In this document: positions 10,003 to 20,399 of the stretch, piece after piece
Numbering within the stretch: position 1 is the first letter of the stretch
How the letters are laid out: the number at the start of each line of letters is the position of its first letter
Assembly (NCBI GenBank): GCA_017483185.1
Contig: JAFULM010000021.1
Coordinates: forward strand, 1-42,690
DNA from: Prevotella sp.
Lineage (GTDB): Bacteria > Bacteroidota > Bacteroidia > Bacteroidales > Bacteroidaceae
Direction of reading: 5' to 3'
Length of the DNA stretch: 42,690 nucleotides
The notes under the pieces: generated by a model
Database searches by the model: none
What the model saw: the letters and a program-made list of their open reading frames with translations, nothing else
Told to the model about the DNA's origin: nothing
Translations under genes and position numbers: made by a program

Positions 10003-11064
10003 TTATGCGTTCTTGATATATTCCACAATCCATGCGCCGACTTCCTGAGTTCCGTAGTTGGCACCGCCCTCGACCTGAATCTCCGGTGTGCGGACGTTGG
10101 CGTCAAGCGAGGCGTCGACGGCACGGCGCACGAGCGCGCCCTCGTCCTTGAGGTCGAAATGCTCGAGAAGCATGGCCACGGAAAGGATCTGAGCCAGCGG
10201 ATTGGCGATGTTCAGGCCCTTTGCCTGCGGCCATGAGCCGTGGACGGGCTCGAAGACGGGCGTGCTCTCACCCGTCGATGCCGACGGCAGGAGACCCATC
10301 GAACCGGAAATGCAGCTGCCCTCATCGGTGAGGATGTCGCCGAAGGTATTCTCCGTGACCATGACGTCGAAGAATTTCGGTTCGGCAATCATACGCATTG
10401 AGGCGTTGTCGACGAACATGTAGTCGACGTTGACGTCGGGATACTGCGGCTCCATCTCCTTGGCTATCTGTCGCCACAGGCGGCTCGACGCCAGCACGTT
10501 GGCCTTGTCGACGACGGTGAGATGGCGGTTGCGGCGGCGGGCATACTCAAAGCCGACCTTGAGGATGCGCTCCACCTCGGGACGGGTGTAGTAGTTGGTG
10601 TCGTATGCCTTGTCGTTGTCCTGATATTTCTCGCCGAAATACATTCCTCCGGTGAGCTCGCGGATACAGATGAAGTCGGCTCCGTCGACCAGTTCGGGCC
10701 GCAACGGCGACTTATGCACGAGACACTTGAACGTCTGGACCGGACGGATGTTGGCAAAAAGGCCGAGCTTCTTGCGCATGGCCAGCAGTCCCTGCTCGGG
10801 ACGTACCTTCGCCGTCGGGTCGTTGTCGAACTTCGGATCGCCGACGGCCGCGAACAACACGGCGTCAGCCTCACGGCACACGCGGAATGTCTCTTCGGGA
10901 AACGGATCACCGACAGCGTCGATGGCCGACGCTCCGCACAGAGCCTCCTCGTATGTCACTTCGTGTCCGAACTTTGCGGCAATGGCGTCCATGACGGCCA
11001 CTCCCTGCTTCATTATCTCCGGCCCGATACCATCACCGGGCAAAACTGCGATTTTTAATTTCAT
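10003..11064 (-). CDS. leuB: 3-isopropylmalate dehydrogenase
   Basis: LeuB oxidises and decarboxylates 3-isopropylmalate to 2-ketoisocaproate with NAD. The 353 residues match the family length. Landmarks are the N-terminal [14 protein letters not shown], substrate-binding [22 protein letters not shown], catalytic YFGEKY (Tyr), [14 protein letters not shown] (Lys), and metal/NAD-binding [15 protein letters not shown] and [18 protein letters not shown]. The same enzyme can act on 3-methylmalate in the citramalate route to isoleucine. It follows the citramalate-synthase-like gene by 141 bases that hold a 29-bp hairpin. Confidence 0.97.
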
Positions 11065-11205: not shown

Positions 11206-12762
11206 TTATTCTATCATATTCAACATCTTTATCGTCGCCTTGATGGCTGCCTCCGTCTGGTCGGCGTCGAGACCGCGGGTGCGCAGCAGCTTGTCGCCGT
11301 TGCGCCACGTGATGACCGTCTGGACGAGGGCGTCGGTGCGGCCTCCCGGCGGGATGGTCACGGCATAGTTGGCCAGCAGCGGGAACGTGCGGTCGAGATG
11401 CTCCTTATATATCTTGCGCAACGCTTTCACGAAGGCGTCATACTGTCCGTCGCCCGTTGCGTCGGCAGCATATTCGCGGCCGTCAATCTCCACCTTGACG
11501 CTGGCGATGGGCTTCAGACCGTAGGCCAGCGAGACCATATAGCTCACGAGCTTGACGCGGTCGTCGGCCGTGCTGTGCTTCAGGACGTCGCTCACGATGA
11601 ACGGAAGGTCCTCCTGAGTCACAATCTCCTTGCGGTCGCCCAGCTCCGTGATGCGGCGCGTCACCTTCTGAGTCTGCTCCGGCGTCAGTTCGAGACCGAG
11701 CTCCTGAAGGTTTCGGGCTATGTTGGCCCGGCCGCTCGTCTTTCCGAGGGCATACTCGCGCTTGCGGCCGAAACGCTCCGGCACGAGGTCGTTGCAGTAG
11801 AGATTGCGCTTGTTGTCGCCGTCGGCGTGGACTCCGGCCACCTGCGTGAAGACATTTTCGCCGACGACCGGCTGGTTCGGAGCGATGGCGATGCCCGAAT
11901 AGCCTTCCACCAATCGGCTCAGGTCGTTGAGCCGGTCCTCCCGTATGCTCGTCTTGGCATGGAACTGGTCCTTCAGAATCACCTGTACGCTCGACAGAGG
12001 GGCGTTTCCGCAGCGCTCGCCAAGGCCGTTGACAGTCACGTGCAAGCCCTTCGCGCCGCAGAGAACGGCACCGAGCGAGTTGCTCACGGCAAGGTCGTAG
12101 TCGTTGTGTGCGTGGAAGTCGAAGTGCAGGTCGGGGTAGCGTTTCACCATCTTGCGGAAGAACTCGATGGCCTGCAGCGGGTTCATTATGCCCAGCGTGT
12201 CGGGTAGCATGAAGCGCTTGATATTGGTGTCGCGCAGCGCGTCGACCATCATATAGACGTAGTCAGGCGAGTCTTTCATGCCGTTGCTCCAGTCTTCGAG
12301 ATAGAGATTGACGCTGATGCCGCGTTTCTCGGCATACGCCAGCGAACGGCGTATTTCCCCGATATGCTCCTCCGGAGTCTTGTGGAGTTGGTGGGTGCAG
12401 TGCTTCAGCGAGCCTTTGGCCAGCAGATTGATGACCCGGCCGCCACATTCGGCAATCCAGTCGACCGACAGATGGCCGTCGACGAAGCCCAACACCTCCA
12501 CCCTGTCGAGCATGTCAATCTGGCGGGCGTAACGGCAAATCATCTTCACGGCGTCCTTCTCGCCCTCCGAAACCCGCGCCGAAGCGACCTCGATGCGGTC
12601 GACATTGACGTCGCGCAGCAGCATCCGCGCTATCTGGAGCTTCTCGTGAGGCAGAAACGAGACGCCGCTGGTCTGCTCGCCGTCGCGCAGCGTGCAGTCC
12701 ATGATCTCGATGAAAGGCTGTATGCGGTGGCCGGTGCCGTTCACTTGTTGAGCCGTTCCCAT
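11206..12762 (-). CDS. Citramalate / 2-isopropylmalate synthase-like protein
   Basis: A 518-residue HMGL-like TIM barrel with C-terminal LeuA dimerisation-regulatory domain. Motifs: EIMDCTLRDGEQTSGVSF at the N-terminus, HAHNDYDLAVSNSL (metal ligands), NGLGERCGNAPL, then a regulatory domain from about residue 380 (VKVEIDGREYAADATGDGQYDAF). It differs clearly from the canonical leuA four genes upstream. Paralogues in Bacteroidales leu operons are thought to be citramalate synthases, condensing pyruvate and acetyl-CoA for isoleucine synthesis through LeuCD and LeuB. That role is inferred. Its ATG overlaps the leuD end by 22 bases, implying coupling. Confidence 0.85.
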   Translation of the reverse strand: MGTAQQVNGTGHRIQPFIEIMDCTLRDGEQTSGVSFLPHEKLQIARMLLRDVNVDRIEVASARVSEGEKDAVKMICRYARQIDMLDRVEVLGFVDGHLSVDWIAECGGRVINLLAKGSLKHCTHQLHKTPEEHIGEIRRSLAYAEKRGISVNLYLEDWSNGMKDSPDYVYMMVDALRDTNIKRFMLPDTLGIMNPLQAIEFFRKMVKRYPDLHFDFHAHNDYDLAVSNSLGAVLCGAKGLHVTVNGLGERCGNAPLSSVQVILKDQFHAKTSIREDRLNDLSRLVEGYSGIAIAPNQPVVGENVFTQVAGVHADGDNKRNLYCNDLVPERFGRKREYALGKTSGRANIARNLQELGLELTPEQTQKVTRRITELGDRKEIVTQEDLPFIVSDVLKHSTADDRVKLVSYMVSLAYGLKPIASVKVEIDGREYAADATGDGQYDAFVKALRKIYKEHLDRTFPLLANYAVTIPPGGRTDALVQTVITWRNGDKLLRTRGLDADQTEAAIKATIKMLNMIE

Positions 12763-13331
12763 CGTTCGATCTTATCCTTATTCTCTATCAGATAGTCGAT
12801 GTCATCGAGACCGTTCATCAGGCAGTGCTTCTTATATCCGTTAATCTCAAACTGCTCGCTGCGTCCGGTTGCCTTGTTCGCCACCGTCTGCGCCGGGAGA
12901 TTGACTTCCACGACGGTCTTCGGGTCGGCGGCGATGCTGTCGAACAGCTCCGCGAGGAAGTCCTCACTCACCACCACGGGCAGCACGAAGTTGTTGAGCT
13001 CGTTGTTCTTGTGGATGTCGGCGAAGAAACTGCTTATCACCACGCGGAAGCCATAGCCCGCAATGGCCCACGCCGCATGCTCACGGCTCGATCCGGAACC
13101 GAAGTTCTTGCCGGCCACGAGGATGCAGCCGCCGTATGTCGGGTCGTTGAGAACAAAATCTTTCTTCGGCGTGCCGTCCTCGTTGTACCGCCAGTCGCGG
13201 AAGAGATTGTCTCCGAAGCCGGCCTTGTCCGTCGCTTTGAGGAAGCGCGCGGGGATTATCTGGTCTGTGTCGACGTTCTCCAAAGGGAGCGGAACACATG
13301 TACTTGTTATTATGTCGAATTTCTGTTTCAT
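12741..13331 (-). CDS. leuD: 3-isopropylmalate dehydratase small subunit
   Basis: With LeuC this subunit isomerises 2- to 3-isopropylmalate (and citramalate to methylmalate). The 196-residue protein contains NVDTDQIIPARFLK near the N-terminus and GKNFGSGSSREHAAWAI, both diagnostic of LeuD swivel domains. The start codon is 20 bases after the leuC stop. Length and motifs are normal. Confidence 0.97.
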   Translation of the reverse strand: MKQKFDIITSTCVPLPLENVDTDQIIPARFLKATDKAGFGDNLFRDWRYNEDGTPKKDFVLNDPTYGGCILVAGKNFGSGSSREHAAWAIAGYGFRVVISSFFADIHKNNELNNFVLPVVVSEDFLAELFDSIAADPKTVVEVNLPAQTVANKATGRSEQFEINGYKKHCLMNGLDDIDYLIENKDKIERWERLNK

Positions 13332-13351: not shown

Positions 13352-14749
13352 CTAATCCACCATCTCCCTCGGGTCCGTTATCACTCCCGTCACGGCAGCG
13401 GCGGCGGCGACGAGCGGCGAGGCAAGGATTGTGCGGGCGCCGGGGCCTTGGCGTCCTTCAAAGTTGCGGTTGCTCGTGGACACGGAATACTTGCCGGCAG
13501 GAATCTTGTCGTCGTTCATCGCGAGACAGGCCGAGCAGCCCGGCTGACGGATGGCGAAGCCCGCAGCTTCCAATATCTTGTCGAGTCCCTCCTCGCGTAT
13601 CTGCTTGTCCACGGCCCACGAACCGGGCACGAGCCACGCCGTCACCGTGTCGGCCTTGCGGCGGCCCTTGACGAGCGAGGCGAAAGCGCGGAAGTCCTCG
13701 ATGCGTCCGTTGGTGCAGGCGCCGAGGAAGACGTAGTCGATCTTATGACCGAGCAGCCGTTCGCCCGGCTGGAAGCCCATATAGTCGAGCGACTTGACAA
13801 ACGACGCCTTGCCGGCCTCGTCGATGCTGTCGAGCGTCGGTATGGACGCGGTGATGCCCATGCCCATGCCGGGATTGGTGCCGTAGGTCACCATCGGTTC
13901 GATGTCGGCGGCGGCAAAGGTCAGCTCCTTGTCGAACACGGCATCGTCGCCGCTCTTCAGCGTCTTCCAGTATTCGACGGCCTTATCCCAATCATCGCCT
14001 TTCGGTGCGAACTCGCGGCCGCGGATATACTCAAATGTCGTCTCGTCGGGGGCGATGAAACCGCCGCGTGCGCCCATCTCTATCGAGAGGTTGCACAGCG
14101 TGAGCCGTCCCTCCATAGACATATCGCGCACGACGCTGCCGGCGTATTCGATGAAATAGCCCGTACCGCCGGATGTCGTGAGCTGCGACATCAGATAGAG
14201 AGCCACGTCCTTTGCCGTCACGCCGCGTCCCAGCGTGCCCTCGATGCTGATGCGCATGGACTTGGGCTTCTGCTGGAGTATGCACTGCGAGGCCATCACC
14301 ATCTCCACCTCACTCGTTCCGATGCCGAAGGCCACGGCTCCCATAGCGCCGTGTGTCGACGTGTGGGAGTCACCGCAGACGATGGTCATGCCGGGCAGCG
14401 ACAGTCCCTTCTCCGGTCCGACGACATGGATGATGCCGTTGTCGGGCGACATCATGCCGTAATGTGTCAGCCCGAAGTCAGCCGCGTTCCTGGCCAGCGT
14501 GTCCACCTGCTTCTTCGACACGGGGTCCTCGATTGGTTTGTCCTGATCGTGGGTCGGTGTGTTGTGGTCGGGCATACAGTAAATCTGTTCGGGACGGAAA
14601 CACCGCAATCCTCTCTTGCGCATGCCGTCGAATGCCTGCGGCGATGTCACCTCATGACAGTAGAGGCGGTCTATATACAGTTGTGTGGGGCCGTCGTCAA
14701 CATTCTGTACGACGTGCTTGTCCCATATCTTATCAAATAGTGTGTTCAT
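13352..14749 (-). CDS. leuC: 3-isopropylmalate dehydratase large subunit
   Basis: This 465-residue aconitase-family protein binds a [4Fe-4S] cluster. Cluster cysteines are visible in FLGACTNGR and [14 protein letters not shown]. Other landmarks are [12 protein letters not shown] at the N-terminus, [26 protein letters not shown] and [19 protein letters not shown]. It works with LeuD and lies 48 bases after leuA in the operon. Family length is normal. Confidence 0.97.
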
Positions 14750-14797: not shown

Positions 14798-16300
14798 CTA
14801 CTTAAACTTATTTATACAGTCAATATACGCCTCGACCGACGCCGTGACGATGTCGGTGTTTGCGCCGAAACCATAGTAGACACTGCCGTTGTATTCCACC
14901 TGCATGTGCACCTTTCCGACATCGTCCGAGCCCTTGCTTATGGCCTGTATGGTAAACTCCTTGAGCGTCATCTGCTTCTGGATGATCTTCTTCAGCGCGT
15001 TGATGGCCGCGTCGACGGGACCGTTGCCCGTGGATGCCTCCTCAAACTTCTGGCCGGAGATGTCCAGCCCGATGCTCGCGACGCTCTTCACGCCCATACC
15101 CGTCGTCACCTGCAGGAAGTCCAGTTTGACGGCGCGACTTGCGGCCGCGTCGGCTCCCGCGAGCATGAGTATGTCGTCGTCGTTGACCTCCTTCTTGCGG
15201 TCGGCCAGCTTGAGAAACTGCTGATAGAGTTCGTCCACACGCTCCTCGTTGTCGATGTTGACACCGAGCACGCCGAGACGATATTTCAGTGCGGCACGTC
15301 CCGAGCGTGCGGTGAGCACGATCGAGTTGTCGTCCAGTCCCACATCCTTCGGGTCGATGATTTCGTATGTCGACACATTCTTCAGCACGCCGTCCTGATG
15401 GATGCCGCTCGAGTGGGCGAAAGCGTTGCGTCCGACGATAGCCTTGTTGGGCTGGACGGGCATGTTCATCAGACTCGACACCATGCGGCTCGTGGGATAT
15501 ATCTTGGTCGTGTTGATGTTGGTCTCGATGTCGATGTTCTTGTGACACTTGAGAATCATGGCCACCTCCTCGAGCGACGTGTTGCCGGCCCGTTCGCCGA
15601 TGCCGTTGATGGTTACTTCGACCTGACGCGCCCCGTTGAGCACACCGCTCAGCGTGTTGGCCGTGGCCATGCCCAGGTCGTTGTGGCAGTGGGTGGAGAG
15701 AATGGCGCGTCCGGCGGACAGTCCGTCGACATGCTCCATGAGATACTTTATCTTCTCGCCATATTCCGCCGGCAGACAGTAGCCGGTCGTGTCGGGGATG
15801 TTTATCACCGTCGCTCCTGCCTTGACGACGGCCTCAACCACGCGGGCCAGATATTCGTTGTCGGTGCGTCCGGCGTCCTCGGCATAGAACTCGACGTCCT
15901 CCACATAGCGGCGGGCATACTTCACGGCGGCCACTGCACGCTCGATGATTTCCTCGCGGTTGCTGTTGAACTTATACCTGATGTGCGAATCACTCGTACC
16001 GATGCCCGTGTGTATGCGCTTGTGCTTTGCGTAGCGCAACGAGTCGGCGGCCACGTCGATGTCCTTCTCCACGGCGCGTGTCAGGGCACAGATGGTCGGC
16101 CACGTCACGGCTTTGGATATCTCTATCACCGAATTGAAGTCGCCGGGGCTCGAGATGGGAAATCCCGCCTCAATCACGTCGACGCCCAGCTGTTCGAGCT
16201 GGCGGGCCACCTGAATCTTCTCAACCGTGTTAAGCTGGCATCCCGGCACCTGCTCGCCGTCGCGCAGCGTTGTGTCAAAAATAAACAGTCTGTCGCTCAT
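14798..16300 (-). CDS. leuA: 2-isopropylmalate synthase
   Basis: LeuA condenses acetyl-CoA with 2-ketoisovalerate, the first committed step to leucine. From the ATG at 16300 it has 500 residues: [19 protein letters not shown], catalytic [31 protein letters not shown] and [12 protein letters not shown], then a C-terminal allosteric domain (from about 385) that usually binds leucine. The frame is open to 16405, but that extension would run through an intrinsic terminator, so the internal ATG ([11 protein letters not shown], with AAGAAAT upstream) is chosen. It is the first structural gene of the operon, behind a candidate attenuator. Confidence 0.96.
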
Positions 16301-16363: not shown

Positions 16364-16403
16364 AAAAAAAGAACCTTCCCCACAGTCGAAGTGAGAAAGG
16401 TTC
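16364..16403 (-). terminator. Attenuator terminator in the leu leader
   Basis: On the minus strand GAACCTTTCTCAC (16403-16391) pairs with GTGGGGAAGGTTC (16383-16371) over 13 bp, including G-U pairs, around a 7-base loop, and is followed by seven T (16370-16364). It lies 64 bases before leuA and 21 bases after the leader-peptide stop. Its left arm includes TCACTTC, complementary to GAAGTGA inside the leader-peptide codons (16447-16441), an alternative antiterminator pairing. Confidence 0.88.
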
Positions 16404-16424
16404 AATATCTATTGTCACGCATAG

Positions 16425-16505
16425 CTACCGACACACATTTTCACTTCCGCCCACTCGTTGCAGTCGGATAATATTGATGATGTGTAGCAGACCGGTGTAT
16501 GTCAT
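16425..16505 (-). CDS. Leu/Ile-rich leader peptide of the leu operon
   Basis: A 26-codon frame starting ATG ACA TAC and ending TAG. Residues 5-15 read GLLHIINIIRL; of 26 residues, 3 are Leu, 4 Ile and 2 Val. It begins about 30 bases after a consensus promoter and stops just before an intrinsic terminator, as in classical amino-acid attenuators. When Leu or Ile tRNA is scarce the ribosome would stall at codons 6-15, leaving the GAAGTGA segment free to pair with the terminator arm. When supply is good the ribosome covers it and the terminator forms. No strong ribosome binding site is visible, which is normal in this phylum. Assignment is from sequence logic only. Confidence 0.75.
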   Translation of the reverse strand: MTYTGLLHIINIIRLQRVGGSENVCR

Positions 16506-16536
16506 ATTCTCGTCGTATATTCGTTTTATTCGGCTG

Positions 16537-16568
16537 CAAAGTTAACCATTTATTGCCGAACAAACAAA
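16537..16568 (-). promoter_or_regulatory. Promoter of the leu operon
   Basis: Minus-strand TTTG (16568-16565), a 20-base spacer and TAACTTTG (16544-16537) fit the Bacteroidota consensus. Transcription would begin near 16530, giving a 230-base leader. Confidence 0.78.
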
Positions 16569-20324: not shown

Positions 20325-20399
20325 GGGCGCTTAGCTCAGTTGGTTCAGAGCGTCTGCCTTACAAGCAGAGGGTCGGGGGTTCGAATCCCTCAGCGCCCA
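20325..20399 (+). tRNA. tRNA-Val (anticodon TAC)
   Basis: A 7-bp acceptor stem GGGCGCT/AGCGCCC, D-arm TTAGCTCAGTTGGTTCAGAGC, anticodon stem TCTGC/GCAGA with loop CTTACAA (anticodon TAC at 20360-20362), and T-arm GGGGGTTCGAATCCC. Discriminator A at 20399; CCA is not encoded. It reads GUA-type valine codons. It stands alone with its own promoter and terminator. Confidence 0.98.

Follow-up and report, generated by a model that had tools for sequence, protein, structure and literature searches.

A putative ribosome-mediated attenuator with a leucine- and isoleucine-rich leader peptide ahead of leuA in Prevotella sp. and other Bacteroidales

For enterobacteria, attenuators governed by the translating ribosome are textbook knowledge in leu and ilv operons (leuL, ilvL), and trpL is a further example. 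Candidates from Bacteroidetes/Chlorobi are reportedly listed too in the survey of amino-acid operon attenuators by Vitreschak and colleagues in 2004, and one structured RNA, Termite-leu, lies near leu genes. According to a 2010 survey, leader-peptide systems were known only from Proteobacteria and Actinobacteria until its own case from Firmicutes, one atypical leader aside (PMC2965389). Leucine depletion and mutations in the ilv-leu leader of Staphylococcus aureus raise the activity of the ilvD promoter (PMC5794164). Structured 5′ regions before amino-acid operons of Flavobacterium psychrophilum have been described, with “strong clues” for leader-peptide attenuation (PMC9723704), and leader-like short frames have been observed in B. 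thetaiotaomicron (PMC7366714). The Bacteroid-trp motif (RF01692) is a candidate structured RNA of Bacteroidetes and likely cis-regulatory; Termite-leu (RF01730) is also a candidate structured RNA (PMC2864571). 

In this study, the region ahead of leuA was analyzed in a stretch of 42,690 nt from a Prevotella sp. (contig JAFULM010000021.1, hereafter the window). A first-pass annotation had read this region as a ribosome-mediated attenuator, a reading that comparison of relatives supports. We consider it highly probable (roughly 0.9), from the comparison of sequences, that the element is a classical four-segment ribosome-mediated transcription attenuator through which the leu operon senses the supply of leucine and isoleucine.

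Layout of the element in the window

On the minus strand the element is followed by leuA-leuC-leuD-cimA-like-leuB (Table 1). Because its score lies below the curated cut-off, while the leu genes pass theirs, the cimA-like gene is only presumed to encode a citramalate synthase-like enzyme. The parts are ordered on this strand as promoter (16568-16537), leader, terminator (16403-16364), and leuA ATG (16300). All of these had been placed within 230 bases of leuA; the upstream promoter box, however, starts 268 nt before the leuA ATG. The consensus promoter of the annotation was present, but its type had to be corrected: TTTG followed after 20 nt by TAACTTTG is what we take to be a promoter of the Bacteroidetes type. 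The other features were found as annotated, namely a 26-codon frame from ATG 16505 to TAG (16427-16425) with GLLHIINIIRL at codons 5-15 (minus strand), a 13-pair stem (16403-16391 with 16383-16371; 7-nt loop) followed by seven T (16370-16364), and a GAAGTGA (16447-16441) complementary to TCACTTC (16394-16388).

By count, terminator-like matches near the element were at the chance level (2 found, 1.9 expected); therefore the relatives had to decide. The antiterminator duplex of the window was not better than shuffles (p = 0.445). The case beyond chance thus draws on the relatives rather than on the window alone. In the whole window, Rfam gave a single match at gathering score, a tRNA-Val (anticodon tac; 20325-20399, plus strand).

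Table 1. Positions of the operon genes and of the proposed attenuator parts in the window, with the sister element of other genomes
Feature	Position	Strand	Basis
leuA, 2-isopropylmalate synthase	14798..16300	-	NF002086.0, 728.7 bits, cut-off 532
leuC, isopropylmalate dehydratase large subunit	13352..14749	-	NF004016.0 and TIGR00170.1, both above cut-off
leuD, isopropylmalate dehydratase small subunit	12741..13331	-	NF002458.0 and TIGR00171.1, both above cut-off
cimA-like, citramalate synthase-like (presumed)	11206..12762	-	best family NF042433.1 (CimA), 634.5 bits, below cut-off 950
leuB, 3-isopropylmalate dehydrogenase	10003..11064	-	TIGR00169.1, above cut-off
Promoter upstream box TTTG (putative)	16565..16568	-	sequence
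Promoter -7 box TAACTTTG (putative, start site unmapped)	16537..16544	-	sequence; 20 nt spacer after TTTG
Leader peptide frame, 26 codons, MTYTGLLHIINIIRLQRVGGSENVCR; ATG 16505, stop TAG 16427-16425	16425..16505	-	
Putative control codon Leu15 (CTG)	16461..16463	-	Leu in 66/66 aligned leaders; constrained fold
Ile codons 9, 10, 12, 13 (IINII)	16467..16481	-	codon-13 column Ile/Leu in 64/66 leaders
Segment 1, 5′ half of protector hairpin	16460..16468	-	protector pairing and covariation
Segment 2	16441..16454	-	protector 3′ half 16446-16454 and antiterminator strand GGAAGTGA 16441-16448
Segment 3	16388..16403	-	terminator 5′ arm 16391-16403; TCACTTC 16388-16394 pairs with segment 2
Segment 4	16364..16383	-	terminator 3′ arm 16371-16383 and T7 16364-16370
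Sister attenuator (putative)	L236-L249, first 200-370 bases	gene's strand	covariance model; Ile/Leu/Val-rich leaders

Conservation, control codons and competing helices

Upstream regions of leuA were taken from 151 sampled genomes of the family (30 loci), 80 named contigs, and 198 sampled genomes of the order. The 179 regions, of which the window is one, include six identical-sequence pairs from two collections, so that 173 are distinct. A region was scored as having the layout if a hairpin with a folding energy of -9 kcal/mol or lower preceded a T tract and a short upstream ATG frame contained at least five Ile, Leu, or Val in ten codons. The layout was found in 133 of the 179 regions (127 of the 173 distinct ones) and was missing from 46; an intrinsic terminator (hairpin and T tract) between the leader and the first gene was present in 147 of the 179. 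Among the 69 loci of the order sample, 42 had the layout; they represent 31 of 47 families. Some of the loci scored in this way (L056, L069, and L075) look like false hits, their antiterminator pairing being no better than shuffles (p of 0.48, 0.94, and 0.54, respectively). Beyond the order, 29 loci were scanned, the best-scoring ones from 92 leuA-bearing genomes among 148 sampled; none had an Ile/Leu leader accompanied by a terminator ahead of leuA, with leuA not assumed to head its operon. At least six Ile/Leu codons in ten were counted in 121 of 144 regions, as compared to 3.2% of dinucleotide shuffles of the pre-terminator stretch, and at least seven in 100 of 144, as compared to 0.6% (three of the 147 terminator-bearing regions were left out for N or length). 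A chance frame beside a chance hairpin is ruled out by the shuffles and the conservation, though not by the window alone.

The promoter was also recovered in the relatives: in 96 of 113 loci the 120 nt upstream of the leader ATG contained TTTG-N17-22-TAnnTTTG, as did 0.4% of base-shuffled sequences. The median distance from the end of the -7 box to the leader ATG in these 96 loci was 27 nt, which fits the commonest 5′ UTR length of 23 nt in B. thetaiotaomicron (PMC7366714). A Shine-Dalgarno-like word preceded the leader in 3 of 113 loci, in line with the remark of the first-pass annotation that strong ribosome binding sites are few in Bacteroidota.

Retention of Leu/Ile codons with drift of the other codons, proposed as a check on the attenuator reading, was observed among the relatives. 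Sixty-six non-redundant leaders with GGRRGTG in frame were aligned; since the rows were chosen by this word, the constancy of GGA AGT in them is by construction and was not counted as evidence. In 8 of the 74 loci bearing the word (last occurrence used) it lies in another frame, and it is therefore kept for its bases and not for the peptide. The fifth codon before the segment-2 GGA, 15 nt before the antiterminator segment, was Leu in all 66 leaders, spelled CTG in 47, CTA in 10, CTT in 6, and TTG in 3. Column -7 was occupied by Ile (59/66) or Leu (5/66) and column -6 by Arg, always CGA (46/66), or Leu (20/66); columns -4 and -3 were free to vary. In 63 of 112 loci (113 less L151, which was dropped) the start of the last Leu codon lay 13-15 nt upstream of the base at which segment 2 begins to pair. 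Assuming that a ribosome shields about 12 nt, counted from the start of its A-site codon, one stalled at the last Leu codon would leave segment 2 just free. The leaders of L035, L095, and L110 appear to stop at the TGA of GGAAGTGA, as judged from peptides and segments, which would put the stop codon within the pairing segment.

Three competing helices were examined in an alignment (A1) of 62 of the 66 in-frame loci; L029, L031, L051, and L090, which have long inserts, were removed manually. Because the structures follow the consensus, they are favored over slid versions; with slid partners at most 63% of cells were paired for all three helices. The terminator helix had 95.0% of cells paired and 15 double changes (4.3 in shuffles). 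The antiterminator, formed by GGAAGTGA with TCACTTCC and extended by AAGG with CCTT, had 86.2% of cells paired and 17 changed on both sides (8.5 in shuffles). The protector, which covers the start of segment 2, had 91.0% paired, 29 changed on both sides (8.8 in shuffles), and a covariation score of 0.371 (0.233 in shuffles). For all three helices, none of 500 shuffles was as high in cells paired, double-changed cells, or covariation score, whereas the number of pairs with any double change was unremarkable (25, 67, and 355 of 500 shuffles as high for terminator, antiterminator, and protector). The covariation in both alternative stems that the first-pass annotation had expected is thus joined by that in a third, protecting hairpin absent from it.

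The choice of rows by GGRRGTG partly fixes the antiterminator core in A1; therefore the covariation of this helix stems from other columns. At loci without the word the partners changed together, as in TGAGAATGGT with GCCATTCTCA. At 47 such loci the segments' own pairs averaged -15.9 kcal/mol, as compared to -12.2 kcal/mol for swapped partners, and in 21 of the 47 the own pair was better than 90% of swaps. The antiterminator duplex was better than with base-shuffled segment 2 (p at most 0.05) in 94 of 121 loci; 133 loci with the layout had been reduced to 122 at 93% similarity, and 121 of these were scored.

Constrained folds of the window transcript were calculated with an assumed 12-nt ribosome cover and an assumed start at 16531. 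For RNA synthesized as far as segment 3, the antiterminator formed with a probability of 0.99 when Leu15 occupied the A site and of 0.78 when Ile13 did; in the absence of a ribosome the probability was 0, and segment 2 was paired upstream. A ribosome at the leader stop codon let the terminator form. In the full-length leader the terminator was favored in every case folded, stalled ribosome included; therefore the decision has to be kinetic and based on timing. Known attenuators likewise decide kinetically. A constant partial terminator that sets the level of the operon, the short hydrophobic frame having no part in regulation, would agree with the full-length folds. It would not account for the conserved control-codon spacing, for the covariation of antiterminator and protector, or for the different codons of leu and ilv leaders described below, and we regard it as very improbable.

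The frame, its codon choice, the spacing, and the three helices, as established by these comparisons, are the parts of a four-segment attenuator; we infer from them the signal (tRNA charging), the stalling, the coupling of ribosome and polymerase, and the direction of regulation. With ample charged tRNA, the ribosome would reach the leader stop and cover segment 2, segments 3 and 4 would form the terminator, and transcription would end. With charged tRNA-Leu or tRNA-Ile in short supply, the ribosome would stall on the Ile block or Leu15 with its leading edge just before GGAAGTGA; segment 2, left free, would pair with segment 3 once this is made, and RNA polymerase would continue into leuA. If the leader were not translated, segments 1 and 2 would pair as the protector and the terminator would form.

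Sister elements before ilv genes and the isoleucine codons

A covariance model built from A1 was searched in 61 genomes of the family under strict filters and matched at E of 0.01 or lower in 39 of them. The window genome gave one match, the leuA element, at 99.6 bits, a score that is partly by construction since the window is a row of A1. Away from leuA and cimA, the model found 14 further sites (L236-L249), before ilvD (13) or ilvB (1, acetolactate synthase); these names are NCBIfam assignments, all above cut-off. In the leaders of these ilv sites, for example MIALHTSINLAILHIIRVVVVSSGM, Val made up 25 of the 42 codons starting 10-18 nt before segment 2. Among the Ile, Leu, and Val codons before segment 2, Val accounted for 53 of 156 in the 14 ilv leaders (start codons picked by hand where several were possible) and for 10 of 914 in 112 leuA leaders. 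Val is thus found in ilv and hardly in leuA leaders, and the codons follow the end products of the operon.

These codons bear on two other explanations. The leader peptide itself could arrest the ribosome through its sequence, by sensing free leucine or some other ligand within the exit tunnel, so that the RNA switch follows arrest rather than codon starvation; the invariant Leu at -5, preceded by Arg or Leu, resembles a possible short arrest motif. The Arg is, however, always CGA, with its first two bases in the protector helix, so that RNA pairing can explain it; Ile and Leu interchange in the block, and Val occurs at about this position in the ilv leaders, in keeping with the end product and not with a peptide motif. 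Arrest by the peptide is therefore considered unlikely, if slightly less so than the constant terminator. Control of the terminator independent of translation, whether by a riboswitch, a T-box, a protein, or a small RNA, the frame being incidental, would be compatible with three conserved helices, which may be present whether the leader is translated or not. But such frames are much rarer in shuffles, the codon content of the leader matches the operon, and the stretch from leader stop to terminator varies in length and sequence among the aligned loci, leaving little room there for a conserved aptamer. No match to Rfam Leu_leader, Bacteroid-trp (RF01692), Termite-leu (RF01730), or the T-box was obtained at gathering score or at E of 10 or lower, which speaks against translation-independent control, and a riboswitch, T-box, or known leader family was rejected on this ground. 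The chance that control is of this translation-independent kind seems very slight.

A scan of the regions ahead of ilvD and hisG in the window genome, which is rated 75% complete, revealed no attenuator. Before this ilvD (L210, about 1370-1446) a short frame, MEDINRFANRNTII, lies inside an inverted repeat, ATTCCGGT...ACCGGAAT, perhaps a different leader control.

In 20 further leuA upstream regions of the family (mostly cimA-less, six for comparison) the model found the element in four (L222, L223, L230, and L231). Relatives that lack the frame, named by the first-pass annotation as evidence against its reading, are not the rule, yet in 16 of these 20 regions, chosen largely as cimA-less, the model found no element. 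In these 16 (L212-L221 and L224-L229), many of them from genomes without a cimA match, neither scan nor model detected the element ahead of leuA, an apparent loss. L222 (236-358, minus strand) holds a diverged copy before leuA in which the hairpin is kept and the T tract is absent, as if the terminator were decaying.

The citramalate route to isoleucine also uses leuBCD enzymes. The Ile codons of the leader would fit an operon that combines a citramalate synthase-like gene with the leuBCD enzymes of that route. In the 112 leuA leaders Ile (477 codons) was as frequent as Leu (427), which fits the presence of the cimA-like gene in the operon. The position of cimA was classified by hand for 99 loci, nine remaining unresolved, and L223 and L222 (the latter found by the covariance model after the layout scan had missed it) were added by hand as cimA-absent. 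At 73 loci cimA was beside leuA, and the 58 leaders among them had a mean Ile share of 0.48. Five leaders from genomes without a cimA match had Ile shares of 0, 0, 0.20, 0.25, and 0.57, the last being L222; L158, one of the cimA-absent leaders, has a weak antiterminator (p = 0.19). The difference between cimA-absent and cimA-adjacent leaders was modest, with a Mann-Whitney p of 0.02 with relatedness ignored, and 0.0017 without L222. Ile is also retained in three leaders whose genomes carry cimA away from leuA. Where cimA was not next to leuA, no Ile-only leader was found before it among 20 upstream regions tried; four of the 20 (L250, L253, L254, and L256) had a mixed Ile/Leu/Val leader with its own terminator. 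A link of the leader Ile codons to cimA is, on these figures, tentatively suggested.

A broader reading would be that Bacteroidales possess a matched set of branched-chain attenuators, one for leu with Leu and Ile codons and one for ilv with Ile, Leu, and Val codons. Translation of their leaders would not involve Shine-Dalgarno pairing, and their Ile content would be shaped by the citramalate synthase-like gene of the operon. We lean toward this reading by a small margin over an even chance, a lower figure because the L222 leader is rich in Ile though its genome has no cimA match. If such matched attenuators work, ribosome and RNA polymerase would be closely coupled in this phylum.

Comparison with known systems

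The view of the first-pass annotation that Bacteroidota use the same logic as proteobacteria is supported here, but it is not new in principle: attenuation in this phylum had been suggested earlier in the parts of two papers covered here (PMC9723704, PMC7366714). No leuA leader attenuator in Bacteroidales was reported in the literature searched, outside of which most subscription papers and supplements lie. As a putative attenuator the leu element is well supported by these sequence comparisons, attenuation as such being known and already suggested in Bacteroidota. Within one order it was present in 31 of the 47 families sampled, in a phylum in which leaders seldom carry a Shine-Dalgarno-like word and the published work considered here holds only hints of attenuation. 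It offers a ready reporter in gut Bacteroidota for branched-chain amino acid sensing, and for the question of whether RNA polymerase is trailed by ribosomes at a distance short enough for them to control it. The matched codons of the leu and ilv leaders would make the two natural specificity controls for each other, and the element, which has no Rfam match, could be added as a family.

Bacteroid-trp and Termite-leu are, like this element, candidate structured RNAs, and neither matches it. F. psychrophilum belongs to the same phylum; in the parts of that report considered here no operon is named, and no covariation or codon test is given (PMC9723704). The ilv-leu leader of S. aureus is similar in being rich in Leu, with three Ile, and in standing before a branched-chain operon; the antiterminator proposed there, however, is bound to the poly-U tail without disrupting the terminator hairpin, while here segment 2 pairs with the 5′ arm of the terminator (PMC5794164).

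The enterobacterial attenuators differ in several respects: here no Rfam leader is matched, the promoter is of the Bacteroidetes type, a Shine-Dalgarno-like word seldom precedes the leader, Ile is as frequent as Leu, and the operon includes a cimA-like gene. As in the enterobacterial leu, ilv, and trp attenuators, a leader rich in codons for the end product is followed by four segments that would give protector, antiterminator, and terminator, and the whole stands at the head of the cognate operon.
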